Origin: Bradymonas sediminis | Lineage (GTDB): Bacteria; Myxococcota_A; Bradymonadia; Bradymonadales; Bradymonadaceae | DNA: 64,000 nt | Direction: 5' to 3' | Assembly: GCF_003258315.1 (NCBI RefSeq) | Contig: NZ_CP030032.1 | Location: 2,519,804 to 2,583,803 of the forward strand | Part shown: piece after piece, positions 1,868-7,648 of the stretch | Numbering within the stretch: the first letter of the stretch is position 1 | Layout of the letters: each line of letters begins with the position of its first letter | Notes under the pieces: generated by a model | The model's database searches: none | Told to the model about the DNA's origin: nothing | Seen by the model: only the letters and a program-made list of their open reading frames with translations | Made by a program: the position numbers and the translations under genes

Positions 1868-3337
1868 ATGGCGAAGGAAGTGAATCGGGGAAGCATCGCG
1901 GTATTAGGCGGCGGGATTACGGGTCTCACCGCCGCCTATCGACTCCAAAAAGCCGGCTTCGAGGTCGTCCTCTTCGAAGCCGGCCCGGCCCTCGGCGGCC
2001 AGATAAGCTCGGCGCGCCGAGACGGGTTTTTGCTCGAAGGCGGCCCGCATACGCTGCTGGAGCGCGGACGCCTGGCCGACCTCATCGCCGAGCTGGGACT
2101 CCAGGGGCGCGTCGTGGAGGCGAACCCCGCGGCGAAGAAACGCTTTGTCGTCCGCGACCACCTTCCACACGCCCTTCCCACGAGCCTCGGCGCGTTTCTC
2201 AACTCCCCAATCTTGTCGCCGCTGGCGAAACTTCGCCTGCTGGCCGAACCCTTCGTCGCCAAGGGCCCCGGCGAGCGCGACAACTCAGAATCACTGGCCG
2301 ACTTCATCACTCGACGGCTCGGCCCCGAGGTCTTGGAATTCGCCGTCGACCCGATGGTCGCGGGCACCTTCGCGGGCGACTCCACCAAGCTCTCGGCGCG
2401 CCATGCGTTCCCAAAACTCTTCGAGCTTGAGCAGACCCACGGATCACTGGTCGGCGCCGGGCTGGCCCGCGTCGCCAATCGCCTGCGATGCCTCTTAAAA
2501 CCAGGCCAATCGCGGGACGAAGCCACGCCCAAAAAAGCAACCCGGCTTATTAACTTCGACGCAGGCTCTCAGGTCCTCATCGACCGCCTTTCGGGCGAAA
2601 TAGGCAAGGCACCTCGCCTCAATTGTAAGGTCCGCACCCTTGAGAAAAAAGAGAACGGTCGCTGGCTGATACGCTTTGAGGAAAAAGACGCCGACGCGAA
2701 GATCAAAGACCGCCAAAAGACCGTCGACGCGGTCTTCTGCGCCCTTCCCGCGAACGCGCTGGCGGATATTTCGGTGCGGCTGCATAACGCCGACCCCGCG
2801 GCGCCCTTCGAGCCGCTTCGCGGCATCGAGTATGCCGCGGTTTCGGTGGTCTCGCTGGGCTTTCGCCGCGAGGATATCGAACACCCGCTCGACGGCTTTG
2901 GCATGCTCGTCCCGCGCCAGGAGCAACGCCATATCCTCGGCACCCTCTTTATGAGCACCCTCTTTGCGGGCCGCGCGCCCGACGGTGAGGTCTTACTGAC
3001 GACGTTCGTCGGCGGCGCGCGAAACCCCGAATACGCCCATTTGCCAAGCGACGAAATTTACGCACGCACGCTCGCCGACCTCGATGATTTGCTGGGCGTG
3101 CGCGGCGAGCCGACCCTGCGCGAGCACCGGTTCTGGGGGGAGGCGATTCCGCAATATAACGTCGGCTACGACGCGTTTGAGACCACGCTCAACACCATCG
3201 AAGCCACCCACGCCGGCCTGTTCGTCGGCGGCAGCTTCCGCGACGGCATCGCGGTCCCGGACCGCATCGGCGCCGGCTACGATATCGCCGAACGCATCGA
3301 AACCTATTTAGATAAAGCGACTCAAGCACCAAGCTAA
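1868..3337 (+). CDS. hemY: Protoporphyrinogen oxidase, HemY/PPOX type
   Basis: FAD enzyme that oxidises protoporphyrinogen IX (or coproporphyrinogen III in some bacteria) with oxygen. The dinucleotide-binding motif [13 protein letters not shown] is at residues 14-26, followed by the [12 protein letters not shown] loop that holds FAD; the C-terminus has [18 protein letters not shown], the usual amine-oxidase/PPOX closing motif. 489 residues is normal. It lies 20 bp after hemE and 28 bp before hemB, on the same strand, as expected of an operon. Oxygen-dependent HemY suggests an aerobic lifestyle. In databases the same family is also called hemG; it is not the flavodoxin-like HemG of E. coli. 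Whether it acts in the protoporphyrin or coproporphyrin branch cannot be decided from sequence alone, but myxobacterial relatives use protoporphyrin. Confidence 0.94.
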
Positions 3338-3365
3338 ACGCCTTAAAAAAAACAAGGACTTCCAG

Positions 3366-4358
3366 ATGTCGAAACCCGCTCTCAACGCACCGCTTATCCG
3401 CCGACCCCGCCGACTTCGCCGCGGCGAAAACCTGCGCGCCCTGGTGCGCGAGAACCATCTTCGGCGCGACGACCTGATCATGCCGATTTTCATCACGGCC
3501 GCCGACAATACCGCGCGCGAAATCGCGTCGATGCCCGGCATCTTCCAATACTCATTGGACCGGGTGGACGCCGAGCTCGAGACGCTTCTGGAGCGCGGCA
3601 TCACCCGCATCATGTTATTCGGCATCCCGGCGGCCAAAGACGCCGTGGGCTCGGACACCTGGCACGACCACGGCATCATTCAGCGCGCCATCGGCCATAT
3701 CAAAGCCAACTACCCGGAATTCTACGTCATTAGCGATGTCTGCTTCTGCGAATTCACCAGCCACGGCCACTGCGGCGTGGTCGACGACACCGGCGCCCTG
3801 CTCAACGACCCGACGCTCGAGAACCTTCAAAAACAAGCCATCTCGCACGCCCAGGCCGGCGCCGATATGCTCGCCCCGTCCGGCATGATCGACGGCATGA
3901 TCGGCGCGATGCGCGGCGCCCTGGACGCCCAGGATTTCGCGCACCTGCCGCTGATGAGCTACGCGGTCAAATACGCCTCCGCCTACTACGGCCCCTTCCG
4001 CGACGCGGTCGACTCCGCCCCCCAATTCGGCGACCGACGCGCCTACCAGATGGACCCGGCCAACGCCCGCGAAGCCATGGTCGAGGCCGCCCTCGACCTC
4101 GAAGAAGGCGCCGACATCCTGATGGTCAAACCCGCCCTGGCCTACCTCGACATCGTCCGCCAGGTGCGCGACCGCTTCGACGTGCCGGTCGCCGCCTATA
4201 ACGTGTCGGGCGAATACGCGATGGTCAAAGCGGCCGCCGAAAAAGGCTGGGTCGACGGCGATGCGGTCGCGCTGGAATCACTGCTGTCGATGAAGCGCGC
4301 CGGGGCCGATATTATTTTGACCTATTTTGCCCGGGATATCGCGTTGTTATTGCCGTGA
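3366..4358 (+). CDS. hemB: Delta-aminolevulinic acid dehydratase (porphobilinogen synthase)
   Basis: Condenses two 5-aminolevulinate molecules to porphobilinogen. 330 residues, normal length. [14 protein letters not shown] at residues 124-137 supplies three cysteines (C126, C128, C136), the zinc-ligand pattern of the zinc-dependent class; enzymes using magnesium replace these with aspartate and alanine. The two active-site lysines are in SYAVKYAS (K202) and LMVKPALAY (K255), and YNVSGEYAM follows. It closes the upstream block of the haem cluster; directly after its stop begins the palindromic-repeat/RAYT insertion that separates it from hemH by 2.2 kb. Confidence 0.97.
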
Positions 4359-4370
4359 GCTTTTTATTTC

Positions 4371-4450
4371 GGGCACTCTTTGACTATTAAATACGCCGAA
4401 CTTGCCAGACCTTGAAGGTCTGACTCCTGATTTCGCGACGAAACAATACC
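4371..4450 (+). repeat. Left edge of the REP region with first B-type palindrome
   Basis: The segment opens with GGGCACTCTTTGACTATTA at 4371, which recurs with two changes at 5596 in front of the second array. At 4404 lies the first B-type palindrome, CCAGACCTTGAAGGTCTGA, whose arms CCAGACCT/AGGTCTGG are imperfect here at the last bases. It is followed by the same linker (CTCCTGATTT-CGACGAAACAATACC) that joins B to A throughout the second array, so this is one complete B-A module. Confidence 0.8.
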
Positions 4451-4782
4451 GGAGCCAGACCATCTTGGTCTGGCATGCAAACTCCCTCCCCTCCGGAGCC
4501 AGACCATCTTGGTCTGGCATGCAAACTCCCTCCCCTCCGGAGCCAGACCATCTTGGTCTGGCATGCAAACTCCCTCCCCTCCGGAGCCAGACCATCTTGG
4601 TCTGGCATGCAAACTCCCTCCCCTCCGGAGCCAGACCATCTTGGTCTGGCATGCAAACTCCCTCCCCTCCGGAGCCAGACCATCTTGGTCTGGCATGCAA
4701 ACTCCCTCCCCTCCGGAGCCAGACCATCTTGGTCTGGCATGCAAACTCCCTCCCCTCCGGAGCCAGACCATCTTGGTCTGGC
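4451..4782 (+). repeat. REP array 1: eight 44-bp tandem units, A-type palindrome
   Basis: Eight copies starting at 4451, 4495, 4539, 4583, 4627, 4671, 4715 and 4759, exactly 44 bp apart; the last is cut after the palindrome. Each has the perfect inverted repeat CCAGACCATCTTGGTCTGG (arms extend by one G/C pair) followed by the spacer CATGCAAACTCCCTCCCC. All eight palindromes are identical, pointing to recent expansion or homogenisation. Long open frames through the array exist on both strands only because 44-bp units lack stops; they are not genes. Hairpins here could also act as the 3' barrier or terminator for hemB mRNA. Confidence 0.95.
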
Positions 4783-4846
4783 AAATAAATATTGCTCTCC
4801 CTACCAGTACAAAATGCTCTGGCTCCAACGATGGCTACCAAACAAA

Positions 4847-5452
4847 TCAATACTGCCTGCGCCACTTCCAATCTCGTAACCCGGCGGCTTCCGGATTCGC
4901 CCACACATATTCACGAATCGCCGCGAGTTGCTCATCGCATCGAATGGATCGGTCAAAATAGTCCCGTTGCCAAAATCGCCCCGCACGACCCAACAATGAA
5001 TTGATCTCATTCGCAGTAAACGACTTCCACGAATGCAAAACCTTCTGCAGCAAATTCTCGGCACACAGTTGGAAAATCACGTGGATATGCGTGCCCATTA
5101 TCACCCACATATCCAGGACATAACGGTCACCATGAAAGTACTCGAGCGCATCGACTACCACCTGAGCGATATCGTCTCGACCAAGAACAGGCTGACAAGC
5201 CGGCGAGTCCAATAGCGCGTCAACCTTTAAAAAATGCCCCCATTCGATGGCGTCACGACCCTCAGGCGTCAGGCGTTTCTGGCGCTCCAATTCGAAGAGT
5301 TGCCGACTCCGCTCCAATTTAAGGCGCTGATGCAGCTTTGATGGGATTGCGCCATCAAGGCAAATTGTCACGAAATATGTGCCGCATTTCACCTCAAGAT
5401 GAGGTAAATACTCGCCGTGATGGCGCGAAACTGAGTTCAGATAATCTATCAT
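4847..5452 (-). CDS. REP-associated tyrosine transposase (RAYT, Y1/HUH family)
   Basis: 201 residues, the usual RAYT size. The Y1-transposase core is present: a first beta strand GTYFVTICLDG near residues 24-34, the HUH metal-binding pair in GTHIHVIF (H122, H124), and the catalytic tyrosine in FWQRDYFDRSIR (Y165), followed by the family's closing helix REYVWANPEAAGL. RAYTs are single-copy, domesticated relatives of IS200/IS605 transposases that bind and cleave REP hairpins. Here the gene sits between two palindrome arrays, exactly the expected partner arrangement. An AGGA eight bases before the ATG supports the start. No frameshift or lost catalytic residue, so the enzyme is probably active. 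It is antisense to the haem genes. Confidence 0.9.
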   Translation of the reverse strand: MIDYLNSVSRHHGEYLPHLEVKCGTYFVTICLDGAIPSKLHQRLKLERSRQLFELERQKRLTPEGRDAIEWGHFLKVDALLDSPACQPVLGRDDIAQVVVDALEYFHGDRYVLDMWVIMGTHIHVIFQLCAENLLQKVLHSWKSFTANEINSLLGRAGRFWQRDYFDRSIRCDEQLAAIREYVWANPEAAGLRDWKWRRQY

Positions 5453-5628
5453 TGTCGTATCCTGTCGAAGAAGTTTGACGAAGTGCTCCCTATTGTTTTC
5501 GACAGAATTGCCGCGTTAATTGCGTGTTCGTGCCCTGCGGCGGCCATAGTAGTGCATCAGACGGCGATAATAGTTCGGTTTCCCTGTTTAAGATTGGGCA
5601 GTTTTTGACTATTACATGCATCACGCTC
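5453..5628. other. Spacer between RAYT and REP array 2
   Basis: Upstream region of the RAYT gene and so the likely place of its promoter. At 5596 it contains GGGCAGTTTTTGACTATTA, a near copy of the left-edge sequence at 4371. No gene is seen. Confidence 0.6.
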
Positions 5629-6517
5629 GCCAGACCATCTTGGTCTGGCATGCAACACAATAGTGGCGACTCGTGTCTGCCGAACTTGCCAGACCTTGAA
5701 GGTCGGCTCCTGATTTGGCGACGAAACAATACCGGAGCCAGACCATCTTGGTCTGGCCATCAACACAATAGTGGCGATTCGTGTCTGCCGAACTTGCCAG
5801 ACCTTGAAGGTCGGCTCCTGATTTGACGACGAAACAATACCGGAGCCAGACCATCTTGGTCTGGCATGCAACACACATAGTGACGATTCGTGTCTGCCGA
5901 ACTTGCCAGACCTTGAAGGTCGGCTCCTGATTTGGCGACGAAACAATACCGGAGCCAGACCATCTTGGTCTGGCCATCAACACAATAGTGGCGATTCGTG
6001 TCTGCCGAACTTGCCAGACCTTGAAGGTCGGCTCCTGATTTGACGACGAAACAATACCGGAGCCAGACCATCTTGGTCTGGCATGCAACACACATAGTGA
6101 CGATTCGTGTCTGCCGAACTTGCCAGACCTTGAAGGTCGGCTCCTGATTTGGCGACGAAACAATACCGGAGCCAGACCATCTTGGTCTGGCCATCAACAC
6201 AATAGTGGCGATTCGTGTCTGCCGAACTTGCCAGACCTTGAAGGTCGGCTCCTGATTTGGCGACGAAACAATACCGGAGCCAGACCATCTTGGTCTGGCA
6301 TGCAACACACATAGTGGCGATTCGTGTCTGCCGAACTTGCCAGACCTTGAAGGTCGGCTCCTGATTTGGCGACGAAACAATACCGGAGCCAGACCATCTT
6401 GGTCTGGCCATCAACACAATAGTGGCGATTCGTGTCTGCCGAACTTGCCAGACCTTGAAGGTCTGGCTCCTGATTTGGCGACGAAACAATACCGGAGCCA
6501 GACCATCTTGGTCTGGC
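5629..6517 (+). repeat. REP array 2: alternating A and B palindromes in 108/109-bp units (BIME-like)
   Basis: Nine A palindromes (CCAGACCATCTTGGTCTGG core) start at 5629, 5737, 5845, 5954, 6062, 6171, 6279, 6388 and 6497; between them are eight B palindromes at 5688, 5796, 5905, 6013, 6122, 6230, 6339 and 6447. A and B share the arms GCCAGACC/GGTCTGGC and differ only in the five central bases (ATCTT versus TTGAA). Spacers alternate between two versions (CATGCAACACA and CATCAACACAATAG), so the true period is mostly a 217-bp dimer. The first seven B copies lack one T in the right arm (GGTCGGC); only the last, at 6447, is intact. The array ends 33 bp before the hemH start codon, inside its presumed 5' leader. 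Long open frames through it are artefacts. Confidence 0.93.
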
Positions 6518-6550
6518 CATCAACCGACCCAAACCCCTCGGAACCCACCC

Positions 6551-7648
6551 ATGACCCGCAACGCATCCCCTCGCAAACAAGGCGTCTTGCTGATCAACCT
6601 CGGCTCCCCGGACTCGACCGACGTCGGCGACGTGCGTCGTTATTTGCACGAATTTCTGACCGACCCGCGCGTGCTCGATAACCCCGCACCGATTCGCCAC
6701 GCGGTGGTGAATTTGGCGATCTTGCCGACGCGCCCCAAAGAGTCGGCCCACGCCTATGAGCAGATCTGGACCGACGAGGGTTCGCCGCTGATCATCATCA
6801 CCGAGAAGGTCGCGACCTTGCTGCGCGAGCGCATCGGGGCCAACTTCGACCAGGATTTGCCGGTCGTCGTTGGCATGCGTTACCAGAACCCGTCGACCCG
6901 AAGCGCCCTGCAGAAGTTGGCGGGCCTGGGCGTCGAGGATCTTTTCGTGGTTCCGCTGTATCCGCATTATGCGATGTCGAGCTACGAGACCGCGGTGGCG
7001 AAGGTCAAAGATGAGGCGCGGGATTTGGGCCTGGATATGTCGCTGACATTTCAGCCGCCGTTTTTTGACGACCCGGATTATATTGAAGCGATGGTTGAGG
7101 TTGCCAAGCCCTATCTCGAGGAGGATTACGACAAGATCCTCTTTAGCTATCATGGGATTCCGGAGCGCCATCTTCGCAAGAGCGACGCCTCGGGCTGTCA
7201 TTGCCTGCAGAGCGAAGACTGCTGCCAGAAGGCAAGCCCGGCGCACGCGACCTGCTATCGCCGACAGGTGCACGCGACCACCTGGGCCTTCACCGAGAAG
7301 GCCGGCATTCCCCCCGAGAAGTGGGACCTCGCCTTCCAATCGCGCCTGGGGCGCGACCCCTGGCTGATGCCCTATACCGACAAGGCGATCGAAGACTACC
7401 CGGGCGAAGGCGTCAAAAAGCTCGTCGTTATCTCGCCGGCGTTTGTCTCCGATTGCCTGGAGACCATCGAGGAATTGGGCATGCGCGGCAAAGAGGATTT
7501 TCTGGCCGCCGGCGGCGAGGATTATCGCCTGGTCCCGTGCCTAAATGAGCACCCGCGCTGGATTGATACCCTGGAGAAATTCGTTAAGACCTTCGTCGAC
7601 GGCGGCTTCCATGACGCGCGCCCGACCGTCCCGGTTGCGCGCACTTAA
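6551..7648 (+). CDS. hemH: Ferrochelatase, internal-cysteine [2Fe-2S] type
   Basis: Inserts ferrous iron into protoporphyrin IX. The start is the ATG at 6551, giving 365 residues beginning before the conserved KQGVLLINLGSPDS; the open frame extends upstream only through the repeat array. The metal-binding histidine is in SYHGIPERH (H201), and the acidic helix is in CLETIEELG. Between these lies a cysteine-rich insert, residues 216-235, with C216, C218, C224, C225 and C235. Ferrochelatases with a [2Fe-2S] cluster held by an internal segment were described in the myxobacterial type, unlike those with C-terminal cysteines; I infer the same here. It is followed 59 bp later by hemL. The REP array directly upstream may affect its expression or mRNA stability. 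Confidence 0.95.
   Translation: MTRNASPRKQGVLLINLGSPDSTDVGDVRRYLHEFLTDPRVLDNPAPIRHAVVNLAILPTRPKESAHAYEQIWTDEGSPLIIITEKVATLLRERIGANFDQDLPVVVGMRYQNPSTRSALQKLAGLGVEDLFVVPLYPHYAMSSYETAVAKVKDEARDLGLDMSLTFQPPFFDDPDYIEAMVEVAKPYLEEDYDKILFSYHGIPERHLRKSDASGCHCLQSEDCCQKASPAHATCYRRQVHATTWAFTEKAGIPPEKWDLAFQSRLGRDPWLMPYTDKAIEDYPGEGVKKLVVISPAFVSDCLETIEELGMRGKEDFLAAGGEDYRLVPCLNEHPRWIDTLEKFVKTFVDGGFHDARPTVPVART

Follow-up and report, generated by a model that had tools for sequence, protein, structure and literature searches.

The hemB–hemH interval and the RAYT protein

The window analysed here is a stretch of 64,000 nucleotides of the Bradymonas sediminis chromosome (NZ_CP030032.1, positions 2,519,804 to 2,583,803), in which the haem genes hemE, hemG, hemB, hemH and hemL were identified with NCBIfam models. 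Between hemB, encoding porphobilinogen synthase (3366–4358, plus strand; NF006762), and the downstream hemH, encoding ferrochelatase (6551–7648, plus strand; TIGR00109), lies a gene for a RAYT, a domesticated, TnpA-REP-like HUH single-strand transposase that acts on small DNA hairpins, with arrays of REP palindromes on both sides. From the hemB stop codon at 4358 to the hemH ATG at 6551 the gap measures 2192 bp, whereas the hemB–hemH spacing in the 11 relatives compared is only 15–203 bp. The REP motif was absent from this gap in all 11, and the stretches surrounding hemB in the relatives showed no RAYT, indicating that the RAYT-REP module is a lineage-specific insertion. This comparison with related species, which a sequence-only reading of the same DNA had proposed, bears out its view that the module splits the haem operon, which is otherwise compact; the distance of 33 nt that it gave from the end of the final hairpin to the hemH ATG was reproduced as well.

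The RAYT gene (4847–5452, minus strand) is an intact open reading frame of 201 codons, in agreement with the earlier claim of a complete RAYT at this position. Its 201-aa product was assigned using Pfam, NCBIfam, an AlphaFold model and 17 homologues. The match to Pfam Y1_Tnp (PF01797) scored 26.9 bits, above the cut-off of 23, and REP_Tyr_transpos (NF047646), the best NCBIfam match, fell short of its cut-off of 80 with 67.7 bits (E 9.5e-19). H122 and H124 form the HUH pair, as had been read from the sequence. The catalytic tyrosine, which the same reading had placed at Y165, had to be reassigned: the catalytic motif of class-2 Y1 HUH enzymes is Y-x3-NP (PMC6006769), it is present here as Y182-VWA-N186 P187, and Y182 and N186, together with H122 and H124, are invariant across the 17 homologues while Y165 is not, so the nucleophile is Y182. 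The tag-recognition block W-Q...[ED][HR]..R, whose residues have reported tag-reading roles (PMC6006769), is matched by W161, Q162, D167, R168 and R171 as putative tag-reading residues. From the biochemistry of its family and the co-occurrence with the REPs, the protein is expected to bind single-stranded REP hairpins carrying the GGAG tag described below.

The AlphaFold model built from the 17 homologues (pLDDT 87.4) replaced a three-sequence model (pLDDT 53.9). In this model, Y182 lies within the helix 173–189, and a long helical segment (residues 38–81) separates the first strand from the HUH strands. The top fold match in the PDB, first in both structure searches, was 4er8, the RAYT–REP complex of Escherichia coli (Z 14.9, rmsd 2.3, 131 residues), with IS608 at Z 12.0; a PDB sequence search with the RAYT gave noise only. 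The contig scan yielded only distant homologues (best 39–47% identity), which were of use for the alignment but not for the question of the REPs. There is one close copy of the gene in the genome.

The RAYT leader (5453–5520, minus strand), delimited by alignment and folds, carries the motif CACGCAA...TGtCGAAAACcAtAGtG...CAGGA. The leader block (TGtCGAAAACcAtAGtG) is common to three RAYT genes, being present at the window gene and in upstream regions at loci L054 and L055. An inverted repeat is located directly upstream of the RAYT start and the leaders can be folded as a hairpin near the start codon; block and hairpin may serve in the control of the RAYT gene.

Anatomy and growth of the REP arrays

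Two types of REP make up the arrays, and most of the palindromes are paired. The y REP is in minus orientation, with the loop TTGAA on the plus strand, and the z REP is in plus orientation with the loop ATCTT. In a full unit, the GGAG tags of y and z face each other across a 23-nt linker. Such inverted y/z pairs, with a linker, one long hairpin and multiple copies (8 tandem units in the window and pairs at other loci), are REPINs. Array 1 (4404–4782, plus strand) consists of one y/z REPIN, with y at 4404–4427 (minus) and z at 4451–4474 (plus), followed by seven z REPs with a period of 44 bp; the first seven z units (4451–4758) are identical, and the last diverges after the hairpin. A decayed REP (GGAGCCAGAGCATTTTGTACTG; 4805–4826, minus strand) has the orientation of the RAYT gene and is located 20 nt beyond its stop codon. 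On the other side of the gene, a z-type palindrome without the GGAG tag (5629–5649, plus strand) lies at the RAYT-proximal end of array 2 (5688–6517, plus strand), which is composed of eight REPIN units of alternating 108 and 109 bp.

Recounting gave the same totals as the 8 + 1 and 9 + 8 palindromes reported before: nine palindromes left of the RAYT gene (one y-type and eight z-type in array 1) and 17 to its right (nine z-type, one of them untagged, and eight y-type), besides the decayed copy at 4805–4826. Their length was corrected, since the z palindrome including its tag spans 24 nt (GGAG plus 20) instead of the 19 bp given earlier. The inward-facing y/z REPINs, the decayed REP and a 2-nt deletion shared within array 2 had not been described in that reading.

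The deletion, which removes the same two nucleotides of the stem, is found in seven of the eight y REPs of array 2, the last one (6447–6470) being intact. Independent insertions are not expected to share a deletion, indicating that array 2 grew by tandem duplication. The array also has a higher-order unit of 217 bp, of which three successive copies differ from each other at 0–2 positions. Together with the 44-bp units that are identical in array 1 and the 217-bp super-period, the deletion common to the y REPs shows that the local arrays expanded through tandem duplication of complete units. Terminator and promoter scans yielded no signal exceeding that of shuffled sequence, and the one Rfam match was sub-threshold and due to chance.

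The GGAG tag adjoins all palindromes of the window but one, and it also precedes the array hairpins at a RAYT of a relative (see below) and at the second RAYT of B. sediminis. Canonical REPs carry 5ʹ-GT[AG]G at the foot of the stem; because the tag here is GGAG, the palindromes were classed as REP-like repeats whose tag is a variant. Searching the literature for GGAG together with RAYT returned nothing relevant, which is no proof that the tag is undescribed.

Distribution of the REPs and their link to the RAYT

Counts in the own genome refer to the single 5,045,683-bp chromosome of B. sediminis, which was examined through pattern queries and selected stretches. The degenerate motif GGAGNCAGACCN5GGTCTG occurs at 86 sites in this chromosome and at 50 sites in a relative of another genus (G010, probably Persicimonas caeni; 8,047,206 bp), with no site for the reversed-pattern control in either, and is absent from the other 24 of the 26 genomes of the order. 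A relaxed stem pattern gave 119 sites in B. sediminis (control 4), 203 in G010 (control 6) and one to three sites in each of five other relatives. The abundance of the palindromes is thus far beyond chance. The 86 sites form about 18 clusters, the REPs listed away from the window making up 17 further ones; the inspected clusters are mainly intergenic and lie between convergent or co-directional genes, genes here being ORF calls only.

The RAYT clade (E below 1e-25) and the REP motif are both found in the same two of the 26 genomes, a small co-occurrence test with two positive genomes only. One G010 RAYT, 54% identical to that of the window, is flanked by arrays, with a CAGCGC hairpin on one side and the CAGACC hairpin on the other. 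Across G010, stem pairing is kept in 53 of 60 mostly distinct sites, representing five different stem types. The window RAYT likewise lies between two arrays, and their REPs are found scattered through the genome as well. The proposal that this RAYT and these REPs belong together is therefore upheld by their presence in the same two genomes and by the nearest homologue, which also lies between arrays of the same hairpin. Palindromes abundant throughout the genome and unrelated to this RAYT had been named beforehand as a point that would count against it. The abundance was found, with all but one of the about 18 clusters lacking this RAYT, but clusters without an adjoining RAYT are normal REP biology, so the link to the RAYT is not broken.

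Several other loci carry comparable hairpins. The largest REP clusters, L057:9263–10885 and L059:4427–5680, hold 27 and 25 counted sites; they have no adjoining RAYT and are located between convergent ORFs, and their tandem units measure 124 bp in the first and about 99 bp in the second. A second RAYT of the same genome (L065:4416–5060; G000:C1:1511415–1512059) has inverted GGAG-tagged hairpins on both flanks (4023–4239 and 5076–5255) with a different stem (GCGGGC...GCCCGC), which suggests a separate second REP family. At L067, repeated CCGGCGGG/CCCGCCGG hairpins without a GGAG tag (1735–2312 and 3272–3445) flank the HMM match (2936–3232) of a Y1_Tnp-like gene on both sides. The second RAYT of G010 also has its own hairpins on both sides, at L055:7737–7884 and just after 8790, with a different stem (GGGCATCTTGCCC).

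Origin of the module and comparison with known systems

The observations comprise the layout of the arrays, the predicted fold and the motif residues of the RAYT, its co-occurrence with the REPs, the tandem growth and a position specific to this lineage. The module is very probably a REPtron, in other words a RAYT gene accompanied by REPs of its own, and settled in the hemB–hemH gap in the Bradymonas lineage. Three points weigh against this assignment: only two genomes hold the RAYT clade, the tag is GGAG and not GT[AG]G, and the NCBIfam score is below its cut-off. Judging from the biochemistry of the family, the RAYT would use H122/H124 and Y182 to nick and rejoin single-stranded REP hairpins. 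In this way it would have distributed y/z REPINs over about 18 sites, as family biochemistry and the co-occurrence suggest. Local arrays then became larger by tandem duplication of entire units. The module probably persists because transcription of the operon still crosses the insert, or because a separate start serves hemH.

An alternative is that the arrays regulate the haem operon, with transcribed REPINs stopping or stabilizing the hemB mRNA and lowering the expression of hemH, whereby ferrochelatase would be tuned by the length of the arrays. The arrays do lie directly behind hemB and end 33 nt before hemH, and REPs elsewhere are reported to aid Rho-dependent termination (PMC2817692). Their RNA folds are also very stable (z −7.3 and −13.3), that of one REPIN reaching −44.8 kcal/mol (z −7.3), and the arrays might accordingly protect mRNA ends or have Rho-dependent effects. 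However, none of the array hairpins was identified as an intrinsic terminator, and the arrays are without U-tracts. Moreover, the arrangement is not kept in relatives, similar arrays lie at unrelated convergent or co-directional gene pairs of the same genome, and array growth resembles neutral tandem duplication. We consider regulation of the operon unlikely, and any effect on the haem genes is most likely incidental. Still less probable is co-option of the arrays as a rheostat of variable length placed between hemB and hemH; if this were true, copy-number changes driven by the RAYT or by slippage would alter the ferrochelatase level and haem flux within populations.

We also weighed whether the element, instead of a RAYT, is an insertion sequence of the IS200/IS605 type, autonomous and ending in hairpins. 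It shares the Y1 HUH fold with that family and shows a weak NCBIfam transpos_IS200 match (19.4 bits; cut-off 55). However, IS200/IS605 TnpA proteins have Y-x3-Q and belong to autonomous multicopy elements, whereas the window protein has Y-x3-NP (PMC6006769), its fold is nearer to the RAYT 4er8 than to IS608, and a single close copy of the gene contrasts with hairpins multiplied throughout the genome. This candidate was therefore rejected, and we regard it as very improbable. A coincidence, with generic tandem repeats or sequence resembling terminators happening to lie beside the RAYT, fits the fact that most REP clusters of the genome have no RAYT next to them, but is already contradicted, and barely credible, in view of the shared occurrence in two of 26 genomes, the homologous RAYT of another genus between arrays of the same hairpin, and a tag and stem base that are kept while the stem covaries.

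The premise of the sequence-only reading that REPs normally scatter singly, and that arrays lying by the enzyme are abnormal, does not hold. Inverted REPs are reported on the flanks of RAYTs in every case, with BIMEs in about a third (PMC2817692), arrays of REPINs and REPs in tandem as well as REPIN clusters near RAYTs have been described in Pseudomonas fluorescens SBW25 (PMC3116915), and REPs are concentrated beside RAYT genes in Marinomonas (PMC8266576). A RAYT flanked by hairpin arrays is well known, and the unusual feature is mainly its location inside a haem operon. The module is thus a REPtron, a known type, found in an unusual place. With it, the predatory order Bradymonadales gains a RAYT-REP module that has two conserved REP types and the tag GGAG; the comparison of two genera provides a test of RAYT/REP co-evolution and of the departure of the tag from GTAG, and the interrupted haem operon offers a natural setting to ask whether REP arrays alter expression across a gene boundary.

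Like the REPtrons of E. coli, Stenotrophomonas maltophilia and Marinomonas MWYL1 (PMC2817692, PMC8266576), the module combines one RAYT, which has the HUH and Y-x3-NP motifs, with tagged palindromic REPs that flank the gene, are also dispersed and, as in Marinomonas, are concentrated beside it. It differs from them in its GGAG tag in place of GT[AG]G, in the helical segment 38–81 and in the haem-operon site. The E. coli RAYT 4er8, the best structural match, shares about 20% identity and has 165 aa compared with 201 aa in Bradymonas. As in SBW25 (PMC3116915), inverted REP doublets form one long hairpin and are repeated in tandem including their flanks, single REPs form evenly spaced arrays, and clusters lie near RAYTs. 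Unlike SBW25, where the largest REPIN cluster quoted has four REPINs and a REP and the largest tandem arrays hold 12 GI and GIII sequences (PMC3116915), Bradymonas has its REPs at a smaller number of loci (about 18 clusters) but in larger arrays, of up to 27 counted REPs.
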